Below are positions 13,476 to 33,350 of a stretch of DNA of 33,361 nt, in pieces. A program made the translations under genes and the position numbers. Each line of letters opens with the position of its first letter. The first letter of the stretch is position 1. The notes under the pieces were generated by a model. It had not been told where the DNA came from, did no database searches, and saw nothing but the letters and a program-made list of their open reading frames with translations. This DNA comes from Armatimonadetes bacterium 13_1_40CM_64_14 (GTDB lineage Bacteria; Sysuimicrobiota; Sysuimicrobiia; Sysuimicrobiales; Kaftiobacteriaceae), in the NCBI GenBank assembly GCA_001917855.1, contig MNEU01000055.1, positions 1-33,361 of the forward strand, in the 5' to 3' direction.

Positions 13476-16196
13476 ATGGCAAAGGAACTAGAGCGCCCTA
13501 ATCCCGATGCGCTGCTGACGCAGGCGAAGCAAGAAGAGAGTCGCGTCGGCAAGCTCAAGATTTTCTTGGGGTACGCTGCAGGGGTCGGCAAGACCTACGC
13601 GATGCTGGAGGCTGCCTGCCAACGGCAGGCCGAAGGCATCAATGTGGTCGCGGCGTTGGTAGAGACGCACCACCGCAAAGAGACCGAGGCTCTGCTGGAA
13701 GGCCTGCCCGCGATCCCCCGCCGCAAGTTCGAGCACCGCGGGGTTGTACTCGAAGAACTGGACCTCGACGCGGTCCTGGCGCGGCGGCCCCAGCTCGCGC
13801 TCGTTGATGAACTCGCCCACACCAACGCACCCGGAAGCCGCCATGCCCGCCGGTATCAGGACATCGAGGAACTGCTCGCCGCCGGTATTGACGTCTACAC
13901 CACGCTGAACATCCAATCCGTCGAGAGTCTCAGCGACGTGGTCTCACAAATCACGGGCGTCGTGATTCGGGAGACTGTGCCGGATCAGGTATTAGAGAGA
14001 GCCGATGAGGTCATTCTCATCGACTTCCCTCCTGATGAGCTGATCAAGCGGTTGCACGAGGGCAAAGTTTACGTCCCCGAGCAGGCGGGAACCGCCGTTC
14101 AGAAATTCTTCCGTCCCGGCAATCTCACGGCGCTCCGCGAGTTGGCTCTCCGCCATCTGGCGCGTAAGGTCGACCGCCAGATGCGCACGTACATGGGGGC
14201 GCACGGGATTCCCGGACCCTGGCCCGCCGGCGAATGCGTGCTGGTCTGCCTGGGGCCGGGGCCGATTGCCGAGCGCCTCGTGCGCGTAGGCCGGCGCCTT
14301 GCCGACACCTTGGATGCCGAGTGGATCGTCGTGTTCGTGGAGACGCCCGAGTACCGCCGACTACCCGACGCGGAGAAAGATCGCATCGCGCGCGCTCAGC
14401 GGCTGGCAGAAGAACTGGGGGCCCGCACCGAGACCATCACCGGAATCAGCCCGCCACAAGAGATTGTACGGTACGCGCTCACCCACAATGTGACGAAGGT
14501 CGTCGCCGGCGTCTCTCGGCGACCGTTCCTGGAACGCCTGATCCGCGGGTCTCTCGTGGATTGGATCGTCCGGCATACAGAGAACATCGACGTCTACGTG
14601 ATCAGCAGCCCGTCCGGTCGGGGCGCGACCCCAACCACTGTGCGCCCGCGCCGACCGGCGGCCCTGTGGCCTTATGCGTATGCGCTGGCTATCGCGGCCG
14701 CCGTGGGGCTATCCGGCAGCGTCTTCCCGAGCCGACTTGAACCGGTTAATCTGACCACGCTGAACTTGCTCGTCGTCGTCATCGTCGCGTATTACTGGGG
14801 GCGCGGCCCCGCTATCCTGGCCGCGTGGCTTGGTGCGGCAACCTTCTACCTTGCCGTGGCCCCCCGCCTGACCATGCGGGGGGTTGTTAGTCCCCAGTTC
14901 CTCCTGACGCTGACGGGCCTGCTCGTGGTCGGGCTGGTTATTGGCACCCTGACCAGTCGGATCCGAGAGCAGGCCCAGGCAGCACGAGCTCGGGAAGCCT
15001 CCACAGCGGCACTGTACGCGCTGAGTCGTGACCTCGCGGCCGCCGAGAACATGGAGGAGATTCTCAACGCCGTGACCCGGCACATCTCAAGCGTTTTCAG
15101 CCGCCAAGTCGCGATTTTTCTCCCTGCCGAAGGGAAACTCGATATGGCTGTCCAAAGTGGGGACTTCCCCTTCACCGACAATGAGCGCGCGGTCGCGTCT
15201 TGGGTGTTCGCGCACGGCGAGCCGGCAGGGCGAGGGACCGAAACGCTGCCCGCAGCCACAGCACGGTACTTGCCTTTAAAAACGGCCCAGGGCATTCGCG
15301 GAGTCCTGGGCGTTCTCCCGGCGGCAGAGGCGTTACCGGCGTTGGGACCGGAGCAGCGGCACCTGATGGAAGCCTTCGCCAGCCAGGCGGCTGTCGCGAT
15401 CGAACGCGCGCAGCTCGCTGCAGAAGCTCGACGGACCCACGTGCTGCAGGAGACGGAGCGCCTCCAGTCGGCTTTGCTGAACTCCATCTCCCACGACCTG
15501 CGGACGCCGCTCGCCGCGGTCACCGGTGCCCTGAGCACGCTGGTCGAGAACGGAAACGTCCTCGACGAGGCCACACGGCGCGAACTGGTCGAAACGGCGC
15601 GGGACGCGGCTCAGCGCCTCAACCGCCTCGTGGGCGATCTCCTGGATATGACGCGCCTGCAAGGAGGCGCGCTGCGGCTCCGCCGGGCGCCGGCCGACAT
15701 CCAGGATCTCATCGGAACCTCGCTGTCGCAGCTCGGGGATACCGTGACCGGACGGAAGATTGAGGTCGACGTGGCTCCGAACATTCCGCTGGTCTCCGTG
15801 GACTTCGCGCTGATCACCCGGGTCCTCGCCAACATCGTGGAGAATGCCATCAAGTACTCGCCGCCTGAGACGCCAATTACAATCCAGGCACGCGCGGTCG
15901 GGCGGAATCTGGAAATCATGGTCGCGGATCGCGGCCCGGGCGTCCCCGAATCCGATCTGGTCCAGATGAGCGGAAAATTACAGCGCGGTCGCCCCGGGGC
16001 AAACAATGGCACAGGATTGGGGTTAGCGATCTGCAGAGGCTTCGTCGAAGCCCACGGGGGACATATCACTGTGGAAAACCGCCCGGGGGGCGGCCTGAAC
16101 GTCTTCTTTACGCTCCCGCTCGACGGGGGCCCGCCAGAGGAGGCCGCGCACATCCCCGATGAACGAGCAAAGTCTGAGGGTCTTAGTCGTCGATAA
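13476..16196 (+). CDS. kdpD: KdpD-type sensor histidine kinase
   Basis: Full-length membrane sensor kinase of 906 residues. The N-terminal KdpD domain (about 25-235) carries the Walker A-like GYAAGVGKT (32-40) and VDELAHTNAPGSRH (110-123). A universal-stress-protein-like domain covers about 252-375; in other bacteria this region binds c-di-AMP. Four closely spaced membrane helices (DUF4118) lie at about 398-492, then a GAF-like region (510-645). The HisKA domain has phospho-acceptor H673 in SHDLRTPL. The ATPase domain has N-box NIVENAIKYS, G1 DRGPGV and G2 GTGLGL (845-850). The F-box is altered (VQMSGKLQRG instead of the usual IFxxFxR form). The ATG at 13476 follows AGGTGA. KdpD normally senses K+ and turgor with KdpE; no kdpFABC lies here and kdpE is broken. 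Confidence 0.95.
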   Translation: MAKELERPNPDALLTQAKQEESRVGKLKIFLGYAAGVGKTYAMLEAACQRQAEGINVVAALVETHHRKETEALLEGLPAIPRRKFEHRGVVLEELDLDAVLARRPQLALVDELAHTNAPGSRHARRYQDIEELLAAGIDVYTTLNIQSVESLSDVVSQITGVVIRETVPDQVLERADEVILIDFPPDELIKRLHEGKVYVPEQAGTAVQKFFRPGNLTALRELALRHLARKVDRQMRTYMGAHGIPGPWPAGECVLVCLGPGPIAERLVRVGRRLADTLDAEWIVVFVETPEYRRLPDAEKDRIARAQRLAEELGARTETITGISPPQEIVRYALTHNVTKVVAGVSRRPFLERLIRGSLVDWIVRHTENIDVYVISSPSGRGATPTTVRPRRPAALWPYAYALAIAAAVGLSGSVFPSRLEPVNLTTLNLLVVVIVAYYWGRGPAILAAWLGAATFYLAVAPRLTMRGVVSPQFLLTLTGLLVVGLVIGTLTSRIREQAQAARAREASTAALYALSRDLAAAENMEEILNAVTRHISSVFSRQVAIFLPAEGKLDMAVQSGDFPFTDNERAVASWVFAHGEPAGRGTETLPAATARYLPLKTAQGIRGVLGVLPAAEALPALGPEQRHLMEAFASQAAVAIERAQLAAEARRTHVLQETERLQSALLNSISHDLRTPLAAVTGALSTLVENGNVLDEATRRELVETARDAAQRLNRLVGDLLDMTRLQGGALRLRRAPADIQDLIGTSLSQLGDTVTGRKIEVDVAPNIPLVSVDFALITRVLANIVENAIKYSPPETPITIQARAVGRNLEIMVADRGPGVPESDLVQMSGKLQRGRPGANNGTGLGLAICRGFVEAHGGHITVENRPGGGLNVFFTLPLDGGPPEEAAHIPDERAKSEGLSRR

Positions 16197-16323
16197 TGCG
16201 CGGGCGATCCGTCGCTTTCTACGCGGCCCTCACCTCAAAGGGTCACGCAGTCATCGAAGCGGAAACCGCGCAGGCCGGGATCTCCGCGGTCACGACCGAA
16301 CGCCTCGGCTGATCGAAACCTAA
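16159..16323 (+). pseudogene. kdpE: kdpE response regulator remnant (frameshifted and truncated)
   Basis: The ATG at 16159 overlaps the end of kdpD by 38 nt, a usual kdpD-kdpE arrangement. It opens with SLRVLVVDNARAIRRFLRG, the recognisable first strand and helix of a KdpE receiver domain. After about 27 codons the match moves to the +1 frame, which reads GHAVIEAETAQAGISAVTTERLG and then stops at 16310-16312. This is a frameshift followed by loss of everything beyond residue 50 or so. The acidic pocket is also damaged (VVDNA instead of VVDDE), and the phospho-acceptor aspartate and DNA-binding domain are absent. The unshifted frame ends at 16323. It cannot be a working regulator. Confidence 0.8.
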
Positions 16324-16453
16324 CCCATCGACCGAGCACGTCGAGACCCCGCGTCGTCACATGCGCCTGCGTTGGACCCGGGAGGCCCATGACGATCCTC
16401 CTACGCCCCGGGGTACCCCCGACGCAGTGTGCGTCTGCCGGTCCTCCTCGTCC

Positions 16454-16909
16454 TCAAGGATCGGATGCGACCGCCGCTCGAACGCGACCAAGGAGGTCCT
16501 CGCCCGCCGCAATGAGCGCGTGGGCCTCCCCCTCGGAGATCGGGTCATCTCCAAACGCTGCAGCGTGGAGGGCGGCCTTCATGCGGGCTGCCAGCCGATT
16601 GCGTTCTGCTGTCCAGCCTTGGAGCCGCTGTGTCAAGCCCTTATCCGAAGACCGCGGCGTGGAGGTCGATTCCCTCAATAACCTGTGCAGGATTGCACGG
16701 CCGCCTTCAGAGGTACGGACTCGCGGCGCCGGAAGTGGCAGGCGCAATACCAATTTGCTCCGCGGGGTCCCATAGGTCGCTTCAGCGCAGACACGAGAGC
16801 AGAACGGATCGTTGTGCTTGCGAGCGGTCGGCGGAATGCGACTGCCGCAGCGCTTGCACAGTGTCCGGGCCCTCTTCCTGGGCGTATGTTTCGAACGGAG
16901 GGTGGTCAT
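16454..16909 (-). CDS. Small zinc-ribbon protein of unknown function
   Basis: I do not recognise this gene. The 151-residue product has a basic N-terminus followed by a likely zinc site, CKRCG at 18-22 and CSRVC at 37-41 (CX2C-X15-CX3C), then a proline-rich linker. The C-terminal half is helical and alanine/arginine-rich. The ATG at 16909 has GGAG about 8 nt upstream. It faces against its neighbours, between the kdpE remnant and the molybdate genes. The proximity to a decayed gene suggests an insertion into this interval. Overlapping plus-strand frames at 16361-16775 have unnatural composition and are treated as shadows. It may bind nucleic acid, but that is only inference. Confidence 0.55.
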   Translation of the reverse strand: MTTLRSKHTPRKRARTLCKRCGSRIPPTARKHNDPFCSRVCAEATYGTPRSKLVLRLPLPAPRVRTSEGGRAILHRLLRESTSTPRSSDKGLTQRLQGWTAERNRLAARMKAALHAAAFGDDPISEGEAHALIAAGEDLLGRVRAAVASDP

Positions 16910-17118: not shown

Positions 17119-17553
17119 ATGCCAGCAGACCGAGCAGTAGACATTCTAAACCCCAGCCAAGCAGCGGCCCTTCTGGGACTTCACGCCAAGACGGTGGTGC
17201 GGATGGCCCGCGAGGGCCGTCTCCCGGCCACGAAGGTGCTGGGCCGTTGGCGGTTCATTCGAGGAGGGCTAGAAGATTGGCTTGCAGGGCAATCCGCCCG
17301 CACCCAACCCGCGTCGGATCTCCCTTCCCCCTCTGGGAGCACTGCTCTGAGTGCGCGAAATCAACTTCGGGGAGTCGTCGGGCGCGTGGCGGTGGACGGC
17401 TTGATGGCGGAAGTGACGGTCAACCTGGAGCCTGGGACCCTCGTCGCCGTCATCACTCGCGCATCCGCCGAACGCCTGGGTCTTCAGCCGAACAAACCCG
17501 TGACCGCAGTCATCAAGGCCACCGAAGTTCTCATCGGGACGCGGGAGCCGTGA
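17119..17553 (+). CDS. Excisionase-type HTH regulator with molybdate-binding Mop (TOBE) domain
   Basis: Two-domain protein of 144 residues. Residues 8-56 form a MerR/excisionase-like HTH: LNPSQAAALLGLHAKTVVRMAREGRLPATKVLGRWRF in pieces, then LEDWL. After a proline/serine linker, residues 80-140 form one Mop domain: NQLRGVVG, then VTVNLEPGTLVAVITRASAERLGLQPN and VTAVIKATEVLIG. Mop domains bind molybdate or tungstate, usually as oligomers. This layout differs from classical ModE, which has a winged helix and two Mop copies. The modA gene starts inside its stop codon (GTGA overlap), so it very probably controls molybdate uptake. The ATG at 17119 lacks a Shine-Dalgarno sequence, so the mRNA may be nearly leaderless. 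Confidence 0.88.
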   Translation: MPADRAVDILNPSQAAALLGLHAKTVVRMAREGRLPATKVLGRWRFIRGGLEDWLAGQSARTQPASDLPSPSGSTALSARNQLRGVVGRVAVDGLMAEVTVNLEPGTLVAVITRASAERLGLQPNKPVTAVIKATEVLIGTREP

Positions 17554-18329
17554 AGGGCAGCGTCGCTGTGGCTGTGCTCCTCCTCCTGACCGCACCCGGA
17601 GTCCGCAGCGCGCAGGGAGGACCAGTGGTGGAGGTGGCGGCCGCTGCCGACGCTCGATTTGCTCTGGATGAACTCGCTGCCCTCTTTATGCGACGGCAGG
17701 GGGGGCAGGTTCAGATCACCTATGGCTCCTCCGGGCAGCTGGCCACCCAGATCGAACAAGGAGCGCCGTTCGACCTTTTCTTCTCGGCGGATGAGCAATT
17801 GATTCGCCACCTCAGCGCGCAGGGTCTCATCGCCGAGCAGACGGAGAAGATTTACGGCATTGGGCGGATCGTTCTCTGGGTGCGCCACGGCTCCCCGATC
17901 GATCCCCAGCAGGGACTTCGCGTCCTCAGCGACGATCGCATTCGGTTCATCGCCATCGCCAACCCCGAGCATGCGCCCTATGGCCGAGCGGCCGAGCAAG
18001 CCCTCCGGGCCACGGGATTGTGGGACCGGGTGCAGACAAAACTGGTGCTGGCCGAGAATATCAGCCAAACGCTGCAGTTCGCCCGCACCGGGAATGCCGA
18101 TGTCGGGATTATTGCCCTCTCTCTTGCGGTAGCGCCTCCTATCCAGCCCATCGGGCGGTATGGGCTCATTCCAGCCTCGCTGCACGACCCGATCCGCCAA
18201 GCTGCGGGAGTCATCGCGCAGTCGCCGCACCTGGAACACGCCAAAGCCTTTCTGGCTTTTGTGACCGGTCCGACAGGGCGAGACGTGCTGCGTCGGTACG
18301 GGTTCACCCTTCCCGCAGAAAGTCGGTAG
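17550..18329 (+). CDS. modA: Molybdate ABC transporter substrate-binding protein ModA
   Basis: Periplasmic protein of 259 residues. It starts with a signal peptide (KGSVAVAVLLLLTAPGVRSAQ) without lipobox. The mature part shows VEVAAAADARFALDELAALF, ITYGSSGQLATQIEQGAPFDLFFSADE and ANPEHAPYGRAAEQAL in order, all hallmarks of ModA/WtpA-class oxyanion binders; the serines of YGSSG and the later NADVG loop normally contact the oxyanion. The GTG at 17550 overlaps the regulator stop (TGA 17551-17553). The open frame reaching back to 17247 is an artefact of overlap with that gene. The product would bind molybdate or tungstate and deliver it to ModB 10 nt downstream. Confidence 0.92.
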   Translation: MKGSVAVAVLLLLTAPGVRSAQGGPVVEVAAAADARFALDELAALFMRRQGGQVQITYGSSGQLATQIEQGAPFDLFFSADEQLIRHLSAQGLIAEQTEKIYGIGRIVLWVRHGSPIDPQQGLRVLSDDRIRFIAIANPEHAPYGRAAEQALRATGLWDRVQTKLVLAENISQTLQFARTGNADVGIIALSLAVAPPIQPIGRYGLIPASLHDPIRQAAGVIAQSPHLEHAKAFLAFVTGPTGRDVLRRYGFTLPAESR

Positions 18330-18339
18330 CCGCGCAGAC

Positions 18340-18993
18340 ATGAGCTGGTCGCCGTTCTGGCTCTCGTTGCAAGTCGCACTTCTCGCCACAGTGATATCGG
18401 CCGTAGCGGGAATCTTCCTCGCGTACTGGCTGGCGGAAAGCCACGCGCCGGGTCGCGGGGTGGTGGAATCTCTGACAGCATTGCCGCTTCTGCTGCCTCC
18501 AACCGTCCTCGGCTACTACTTGCTCGTGTCACTAGGCCGCGCCACTGTCCTCGGGTCTTGGTTTGAACGCGTAACAGGATCTCCCCTCGTGTTCACCTGG
18601 CGCGGCGCGGTCGTCGCGGCCGCCGTTGCCTCCTTTCCATATGTCGTCCGCACGGCACGTGCAGCCTTCGAAGATATCGACGTCAGCGTCCGCGAGGCGG
18701 CGCGTATTGACGGCGCATCCCGCGCATACTTGCTCGTGTCTCTGTTGCTCCCCCTCGCCCGCCGGGGCATCCTGGCGGGAATCGCCTTGGCCTTTGCCCG
18801 AGCCCTGGGAGAGTTTGGGGCGACGCTGATGGTGGCGGGGAATATTCCGGGGCGCACGCAGACGATGCCCCTCGCGATCTATGACGCGGTCCAGGCCGGA
18901 CGTTTTGACGCGGCGAACGCGCTCGTCTTCGTGCTCACCGCGGTCGCTGTGGTCGTCCTGTGGCTGGCTGGCCGCCTGGGGATGGCGATCTGA
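18340..18993 (+). CDS. modB: Molybdate ABC transporter permease ModB
   Basis: Inner-membrane permease of 217 residues, standard for ModB, with five to six hydrophobic segments. The family features are LPLLLPPTVLGYYLLV near residues 48-63 and the ATPase-coupling loop VREAARIDGAS (126-136) followed by VSLLLPLARRGILAG. FARALGEFGATLMVAGNIPGRTQTMPLAIY near 158-187 is almost diagnostic of ModB/CysT-like permeases. It lies 10 nt after modA. No modC follows: the next 275 nt hold no reading frame and the next gene is a potassium transporter. The ATPase must come from elsewhere in the genome. Confidence 0.93.
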   Translation: MSWSPFWLSLQVALLATVISAVAGIFLAYWLAESHAPGRGVVESLTALPLLLPPTVLGYYLLVSLGRATVLGSWFERVTGSPLVFTWRGAVVAAAVASFPYVVRTARAAFEDIDVSVREAARIDGASRAYLLVSLLLPLARRGILAGIALAFARALGEFGATLMVAGNIPGRTQTMPLAIYDAVQAGRFDAANALVFVLTAVAVVVLWLAGRLGMAI

Positions 18994-19268: not shown

Positions 19269-21236
19269 GTGACCACTGGAACCCTGCCAGTACCACCGGA
19301 GAAACCCTCCTCCCGAATTACCTTCCGCCGGATCTTGCTAGGCTCACCTCTGGCGACCAACGAAATGCCCCAACAGACCGTCGGCAAGCTGGTGGGACTC
19401 GCCGTCTTCGCCTCAGACGCGCTCTCTTCTACCGCGTACGCGACCGATGAGATCTTGTTCGTGTTAGCTGTAGCCGGGACGGCTTTCTTCTCCCTTTCCA
19501 TCCCGATCTCGTTGGCGATCGCCGCGCTTCTGCTTGTCCTCACCATCTCTTACCGGCAGACGATCTTTGCCTACCCAAATGGCGGCGGGGCATATATCGT
19601 CGCACGAGATAACCTCGGGGAGCTGGCTGGCCAAACCGCAGGGGCCGCTTTGCTCACAGACTACATTCTTACCGTGTCCGTGAGTGTCGCCTCGGGCGTC
19701 GCGCAGATCGCCTCGGCGTTCCCGACGCTGTGGCCATGGCGTGTCGAGCTGTCGGTGGGGTTGATCCTGGCGATGATGCTGGTGAATCTGCGTGGCACGC
19801 GGGAGTCCGGGAAAATCTTCGCGGTCCCGACATATTTCTTTCTCATCCTGATGCTGGTGATGCTGGCGATGGGTTTCTTTCAAGTGCTGTCGGGGCGCCT
19901 GCCCACCGTCAGTGGCGTGCAGTCGGAGGTCACAGGCGGCGCCGGCTTGACCCTCTTCCTCTTGCTTCGGGCATTCGCGAGCGGCAGCGTCGCGGTTACG
20001 GGCACGGAAGCGATCAGCAACGGGATCCAGGCGTTCTCAGAGCCGAAGAGTCGCAACGCTGCTGCCACCATGGCCTGGATGAGCACCCTCCTGGGTGTGA
20101 TGTTCGTGGGCACGACTATCTTGGCCTATCGCGCGCACGCCCTGCCCGCCGAGACGGAGACTATCATTTCGCAACTGGCACGGACGATCTACGGGCCCGG
20201 TCCGCTCCACGTGCTCACGCTCGCAGCGACGACGATCATCTTGGTCATGGCCGCCAACACCTCGTTCGCCGACTTCCCGCGCTTGGCCGCCCTCCACGCC
20301 GCCGATGGATTCTTACCCCGCCAGTTGACGTATAAGGGGAGCCGCCTAGTCTTCTCTTGGGGCATCGTCTTTTTGGCGTTCATCTCGTCGCTGCTGGTCG
20401 TGCTGTTCCGCGCCCGCGTGACCGCGCTGATCCCCCTTTACGCGATCGGTGTGTTCCTCTCGTTTACGATGTCACAACTCGGGATGGTGGTCCGCTGGAC
20501 AAAGATCGGGCGACTGAGGCCGGAGGAGGTTCTGGAGACCAAGGCCTCCCGGCTTCACTACAATCCGCAGTGGCGGCGCAAGCGTGCGGTGAATGCTGTC
20601 GGCGCCGTCGTCACCTGTGTCGTCATGCTCGTCCAAGCGGTCACGAAGTTCATCGCGGGGGCGTGGATCGTTGTCATCCTCATTCCGGCCATGGTGTGGA
20701 CATTCTTCCGCATCCACCATCACTACCAAATGGTGCGGCGCTTCTTGAGCATCGAGGGCACCAAGCACTTGGGTGGGCCCATGCCCATCATCCACATAGT
20801 GCTGATTTCCGGGGTCCACGCGGCCGCCCTTCGTCAGATTAACTTTGTCCAGTCGCTCGGTGTGAAGTGGTCTGCCGTGTATGTGGCGATTGATGAGGAC
20901 CGCGCCGCCGATGTCCGCCACAAGTGGGACCAGTTCTTCCCTCACGAACAGCTCACGATCCTGCCCTCGCCGTTCCGAGATCTCGTCGGACCGGTCCGCC
21001 AATACGTCGAGCAGCTCCGGACGGCGCACCCGGACGCCTACATCCACGTGGTGGTGTCGCAAATCTTGATGGACCACTACTTGGAACAGGCTCTCCACCA
21101 GAATGCGACGGTGATCTTCAAACTCGCGCTGCAGCACATCCGACAGGTCGTGGTGACCGATGTTGCGTACCCCCTGCATCTGAGCGGGCTCCCGGTGCTC
21201 CCCACTGCTCCGCCGGGCCAGCCCGCAGAGTCTTGA
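19269..21236 (+). CDS. KimA-type potassium importer (APC superfamily, KUP-like)
   Basis: Membrane protein of 655 residues. An N-terminal APC-fold core of about twelve helices (about 35-470) is followed by a cytosolic domain (about 490-645). It resembles Bacillus subtilis KimA throughout: SDALSSTAY at 49-57, YPNGGGAYIVARDNLG at 102-117, LLTDYILTVSVS at 128-139, TGTEAISNGIQAF and ANTSFADFPRLA. The K+-binding residues I recall for KimA (D36, Y43, D117, Y118) correspond here to D50, Y57, D131 and Y132. KimA imports K+ with protons and is inhibited by c-di-AMP binding its cytosolic domain. The GTG at 19269 has GAGG about 10 nt upstream. Automatic annotation may call this an amino acid permease. 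Nearby KdpD supports a role in K+ homeostasis. Confidence 0.88.
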   Translation: MTTGTLPVPPEKPSSRITFRRILLGSPLATNEMPQQTVGKLVGLAVFASDALSSTAYATDEILFVLAVAGTAFFSLSIPISLAIAALLLVLTISYRQTIFAYPNGGGAYIVARDNLGELAGQTAGAALLTDYILTVSVSVASGVAQIASAFPTLWPWRVELSVGLILAMMLVNLRGTRESGKIFAVPTYFFLILMLVMLAMGFFQVLSGRLPTVSGVQSEVTGGAGLTLFLLLRAFASGSVAVTGTEAISNGIQAFSEPKSRNAAATMAWMSTLLGVMFVGTTILAYRAHALPAETETIISQLARTIYGPGPLHVLTLAATTIILVMAANTSFADFPRLAALHAADGFLPRQLTYKGSRLVFSWGIVFLAFISSLLVVLFRARVTALIPLYAIGVFLSFTMSQLGMVVRWTKIGRLRPEEVLETKASRLHYNPQWRRKRAVNAVGAVVTCVVMLVQAVTKFIAGAWIVVILIPAMVWTFFRIHHHYQMVRRFLSIEGTKHLGGPMPIIHIVLISGVHAAALRQINFVQSLGVKWSAVYVAIDEDRAADVRHKWDQFFPHEQLTILPSPFRDLVGPVRQYVEQLRTAHPDAYIHVVVSQILMDHYLEQALHQNATVIFKLALQHIRQVVVTDVAYPLHLSGLPVLPTAPPGQPAES

Positions 21237-33114: not shown

Positions 33115-33190
33115 TGGTGCCGGGGGAGGGAATCGAACCCCCCACGCGCGGCTCTTCAGGCCGCCGCTCTACCAACTGAGCTACCCCGGC
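33115..33190 (-). tRNA. tRNA-Phe (GAA)
   Basis: A 76-nt cloverleaf reads on the minus strand: acceptor GCCGGGG pairing with CCCCGGC, D-arm GCTC-AGTTGGTA-GAGC, anticodon stem GCGGC/GCCGC around the loop CTGAAGA (anticodon GAA) and T-arm with TTCGATT. The CCA end is encoded in the genome. Confidence 0.97.
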
Positions 33191-33271
33191 GCAAATCTAG
33201 AGCGTCACTCGCGATGTACCCTGGGCAACTCGCGGCCTGAGACATCTCGAGTCACGCAAGTGGTTTCGGGT

Positions 33272-33350
33272 TGGCGGGAGCGACGGGATTTGAACCCGCG
33301 GTCTCCTGCGTGACAGGCAGGTGTGTTGAACCAGGCTACACCACGCCCCC
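33272..33350 (-). tRNA. tRNA-Asp (GTC)
   Basis: A 79-nt cloverleaf on the minus strand: acceptor GGGGGCG pairing with CGCTCCC (one G-T wobble), an 11-nt D-loop, anticodon stem CCTGC/GCAGG around CTGTCAC (anticodon GTC), T-arm GCGGG-TTCAAAT-CCCGT and encoded CCA. It precedes tRNA-Phe by 81 nt in the same direction, so both probably share one transcript. Confidence 0.97.

Follow-up and report, generated by a model that had tools for sequence, protein, structure and literature searches.

In the stretch of DNA analysed here (33,361 nt, termed the window) an intact kdpD gene is followed by the remains of its partner kdpE, no gene of the KdpFABC pump is found, and a predicted KimA-type K+/H+ symporter is encoded 3 kb downstream. 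KdpD without KdpE is already known, from Francisella, but a full-length KdpD without either KdpE or KdpFABC, and close to KimA, is a new variant. We tentatively suggest that KdpD, kept after the death of kdpE and the apparent loss of the pump, is a K+ sensor that uses its serine kinase to act at the protein level, with KimA as the likeliest client.

The remains of kdpE, and the reading frame that now occupies part of its site, are as follows.

16159..16323 (+), kdpE stub ORF of 54 aa, beginning at the former kdpE start codon
16159..16300 (+), kdpE N-terminal relic, codons 1 to about 48, with 2 nt missing at ~16225 (frameshift-aware alignment, codon-position pattern)
16377..16415 (+), kdpE C-terminal relic PGRPMTILLRPGV, equivalent to KdpE 210-222 (PARPRYIVTEPGV) (0/400 shuffles)
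16454..16909 (-), small zinc-ribbon ORF on the site of the former central and C-terminal kdpE codons (N-terminal 70 aa conserved in family relatives)

The stub (MNEQSLRVLVVDNARAIRRFLR) matches intact KdpE proteins (MSESGLRVLVVDDEQAIRRFLR) over 22 codons, after which the match passes into another frame beyond ~16225 (ALTSKGHAVIEAETAQAGISAVTTER) and continues up to about codon 48. In a frameshift-aware alignment to KdpE the relic scored 74.2, compared with 31.9 +/- 3.9 (maximum 44.8) for 100 shuffles of the DNA; the scoring was started at 16197, so that the part protected by the overlapping kdpD was left out. The stub reported in the preliminary description of this DNA is thus real, although no Pfam domain was found in it. 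That description identified kdpE partly by a 38-nt overlap with kdpD. The overlap is present, running from the stub ATG at 16159 to the end of kdpD at 16196, but it is not diagnostic, as in relatives there is an overlap of 28 nt or none, or kdpE lies 5′ of kdpD. The frame jump also exists, at about 16225 rather than in the interval 16230-16260 proposed for it, but it is not the only lesion. The acidic pocket carries the substitutions D13N and E14A, ~150 central codons are gone, and on the far side of this gap lies the C-terminal scrap, with a score of 38.2 that none of 400 shuffles reached. A mid-receiver alignment of 16311-16423 was matched by 12/400 shuffles and was rejected; because the C-terminal alignment is the better of the two, an internal deletion is preferred.

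Given the number of lesions, a single frameshift or sequencing error was rejected as an unreasonable explanation. kdpE is a pseudogene, for which an internal loss of ~150 codons together with smaller lesions is the parsimonious description, and there is no open frame with the phospho-Asp and winged-helix domain of a functional KdpE. In itself the relic is ordinary gene decay. Its codon-position pattern is still coding-like (matches of about 0.50/0.72/0.36 at positions 1/2/3), which implies that much of the divergence predates the death of the gene; this may therefore have been recent. We note that the C-terminal part of the zinc-ribbon ORF reaches into the decayed kdpE region.

By contrast with its partner, kdpD is undamaged as a reading frame.

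13476..16196 (+), kdpD, 906 codons, intact; KdpD/serine-kinase, Usp, DUF4118 (TM), GAF, HisKA and HATPase domains (Pfam, ortholog alignment, tree)
13560..13610 (+), Walker A region (GYAAGVGKTYAML) of the KdpD serine-kinase domain, intact (alignment to E. coli KdpD)
13806..13811 (+), Walker B D111-E112 (E. coli D109-E110), intact (alignment to E. coli KdpD)
15492..15494 (+), codon of the phospho-acceptor His673 (ISHDLRTPL), intact (alignment to E. coli KdpD)
15966..15983 (+), F-box of the HATPase lid, degenerate, i.e. QMSGKLQR against IFDKFxR in most other KdpDs (ortholog alignment)

The earlier statements that all 906 codons are open and that the kinase has outlived its partner both hold: kdpE is dead, while kdpD has all the KdpD domains recognized by Pfam and is constrained. 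E. coli KdpD is a tandem serine/histidine kinase, the serine-kinase activity of which needs Walker A, D109/E110 and R190 (PMC11018627). The window KdpD has the same domains and keeps all of these catalytic residues (Walker A, D111/E112 and R192, the equivalent of E. coli R190). At the position of W39 it has Y, like all the non-E. coli KdpDs compared. It also keeps the phospho-acceptor His, the N-box, the G1 and G2 boxes and all HisKA invariants. It is changed at five positions that are invariant in 15 other KdpDs (H148S, P464R, D472S, F832S and F835L), the last two removing both F-box phenylalanines. The histidine-kinase arm is suspect because both are lost; the serine-kinase arm is not. Loss of the F-box bears on kinase activity, but taken alone it does not exclude the protein from the KdpDs. 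The preliminary description offered KdpD a new partner or a kinase-independent role. This was a fair pair of options, now sharpened by the intact serine-kinase residues and phospho-His, the degenerate F-box and the KimA gene 3 kb downstream, although any present function of KdpD is inferred.

A new partner would mean that KdpD is still a histidine kinase, signalling to another response regulator. There is a precedent in Francisella, where KdpD signals to PmrA/QseB and kdpE is a pseudogene in some strains (PMC6584805). In Francisella tularensis SchuS4 kdpD lies beside a kdpE pseudogene (PMC6584805), as in the window, but kdpB and kdpC are kept there (kdpA being a pseudogene), whereas the present search gave no kdpFABC gene, and KimA is nearby. 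His673, the N-box, both G-boxes and the HisKA invariants are all consistent with continued phosphotransfer, and other OmpR-type regulators are present in the source MAG. One of these (C8, 41-44% identity to KdpE) has its own kinase adjacent; for another (C23, 39-41%) no kinase was seen before the contig end. The best regulators thus reach only 39-44%, and the MAG contains no second regulator of KdpE grade. Moreover, in a survey limited to Kdp(F)ABC species the KdpDs without KdpE were mostly without the kinase half too (PMC11018627), while the window KdpD keeps that half with a degenerate F-box. Taken with the loss of two phenylalanines that are otherwise invariant, this makes signalling to another regulator rather unlikely.

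The second alternative is that the loss of kdpE is recent and kdpD will be next, having no present function and a decay that is not yet visible. The coding-like pattern of the relic would allow this, and the F-box, H148, P464 and D472 of KdpD have already gone. In simulations of neutral decay the full 906-codon frame survived about 25% of the time at 0.02 substitutions/site, but only 5% of the time at 0.05. Yet kdpE has a large internal deletion and other lesions where kdpD has none, and the rate of kdpD is not accelerated. In the tree the window KdpD is sister to the KdpDs of intact kdpFABCDE operons of the same order (97/96 support), with a branch of 0.44 compared with about 0.36-0.52 for these. 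A relative-rate count gave 85.9 own-unique changes against 80.5 for the whole protein, i.e. no overall acceleration. By part, the serine-kinase domain was slightly slower (14.4 vs 17.8) and the TM (18.3 vs 13.4) and HATPase (17.8 vs 13.6) regions slightly faster, these per-domain differences being too small to lean on. kdpD is therefore open and under normal constraint, evolving no faster than the KdpDs of intact operons; conservation of this kind suggests that it likely retains a function, and we regard decay in progress as unlikely.

A further comparison is with the kdpFABC-DE operons of another family of the order (f7, L135-L141), whose KdpDs are 57-61% identical to that of the window. There too kdpE stands beside kdpD, but both kdpE and the pump are intact. 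Full KdpD occurs in 8 of 43 genomes of the order; the seven other than the source MAG belong to this one family and all have KdpA, with the kdp genes and kdpE intact wherever the contigs let this be seen. In the family to which the window itself belongs, the nine other genomes lack both KdpA and full KdpD. A lateral origin of kdpD is not favoured, given its sisters in its own order, although its distribution is patchy. A scan of genome contigs did not find a near relative, and no promoter signal rose above chance.

It was stated previously that no kdpFABC lies nearby, and none is present in the window, where the flanks of kdpD are complete. Thus the locus has neither the intact kdpE nor the kdpFABC of the canonical system. 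The MAG (2.08 Mb, 95 contigs, 77% complete) was searched family by family. It has one copy of KdpD; no KdpA, KdpC, TrkH or DAC (c-di-AMP synthase) was found in the 77% that is covered, and the search elsewhere in the genome for a replacement kdpE gave the same answer. The incompleteness of the MAG would allow for a kdpE or kdpFABC in its missing part, with KdpD working normally alongside it, but this is very unlikely when the kdpE at this locus is itself a relic, the complete flanks hold no pump genes and the nine family genomes have none of KdpA or full KdpD. That an assembly or sequencing error interrupts an intact kdpE is scarcely credible in view of several independent lesions, including the acidic-pocket substitutions and the missing ~150 codons.

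Downstream of the relic the same strand carries two further features.

17119..18993 (+), molybdate genes, i.e. HTH-TOBE regulator, modA and modB, between the kdpE relic and kimA
19269..21236 (+), KimA-type K+/H+ symporter, 655 aa (phmmer to KimA 6s3k E=7e-126, site residues kept)

The second of these was absent from the preliminary description. Pfam labels its product an amino acid permease; the full-length match is to KimA of Bacillus subtilis (6s3k; PMC6994465). All eight residues of the K+/H+ site listed for KimA (PMC6994465) are identical (D36, Y43, D117, T121, S125, T230, E233 and Y377), and the product is a predicted KimA-type K+/H+ symporter. It may be a main K+ importer of the MAG, in which a search for TrkH, KdpA and KdpC found none of them. 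In contrast to the B. subtilis gene its neighbours are kdpD and the molybdate genes, and the window lacks a ydaO riboswitch; as no member of a DAC family was found in the MAG either, control by c-di-AMP is not indicated. In the tree the window KimA forms a clade (100/100) with those of two genomes from other families of the order, next to which branch G266 and a plasmid gene of Leptolinea (Chloroflexota). By this topology it is apparently a lateral acquisition and not the KimA inherited vertically in its family. The gene lies ~3 kb past kdpD and the kdpE relic, and a kdpD-kimA operon is not established because the three molybdate genes and the zinc-ribbon ORF separate them. modC was not seen directly behind modB, where kimA comes next.

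We return to a serine-kinase role for KdpD, which we consider the best explanation, if a tentative one. The lineage shares KdpD with relatives holding the whole kdpFABCDE operon, has no pump that could be found, and carries an apparently laterally acquired KimA importer downstream of kdpD. KdpD would persist in the membrane as a K+ sensor with an output at the protein level, by way of the N-terminal Walker A/B serine kinase and with the neighbouring KimA as the likeliest client, while the His-Asp transcriptional arm, its receiver gone, would now be losing its ATP lid. A multi-lesion relic beside a constrained kdpD, serine-kinase residues kept where the F-box phenylalanines are lost, the failure to find KdpA, KdpC, TrkH or DAC, and a nearby KimA of a clade linked to KdpDE-like genes all point this way. 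Against it, KdpB, on which alone this serine kinase is known to act, was not found (and its partners KdpA and KdpC are absent); the two genes are separated as described; HisKA is as well conserved as in functional KdpDs; and the MAG is 77% complete. A lineage with KdpD, without KdpE and apparently without the pump, but with KimA close by, would be a natural test of whether a sensor with a kinase known to act on KdpB can regulate other K+ importers.

KdpDE-like genes are found at other KimA loci. The two nearest relatives of the window KimA (70%; G014 and G034, of the same 100/100 clade) come immediately after genes for a KdpE-like regulator and a short KdpD-like kinase. The regulators are 55-63% identical to true KdpEs and intact, where the window has a relic; the short kinases yielded no KdpD/Usp part, whereas the window KdpD is full length. 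In these relatives the pairing of a KdpE-like regulator with KimA can be tested directly for a regulatory link. In G126 KdpDE-like genes adjoin KimA divergently, and in G286 they are 3.4 kb from it, with both the sensor and kinase parts of KdpD present and no kdpABC within the stretch read. Among about 51 KimA loci surveyed, five of them on plasmids and about 46 others, 4 have KdpDE-like neighbours, and none of these is on a plasmid. The association is recurrent, yet confined to a minority of loci, which also tells against KimA as client. No report of a KdpDE-KimA pairing was found in the literature searched, at title/abstract level for most. The broader proposition, that a full-length KdpD lacking KdpE and the Kdp pump is now the protein-level (serine-kinase) regulator of a KimA-type importer and that in several lineages KimA is under the control of KdpDE-like sensors, we consider improbable as a whole.

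The clusters of short kinase, KdpE-like regulator and KimA are at L143 1551-5802 and L201 13327-17648; in L201 the kinase match shifts frame at about 16566, by frameshift or assembly error. The genes beside or near KimA in the two unrelated genomes are at L230 3673-8154, and at L266 7395-10633 with L239 1186-8035. In G286 the KdpDE-like genes and KimA are separated by ORFs that, read by eye, are of TrkA type. Two tRNA genes are located near the end of the window (33118-33350, -).
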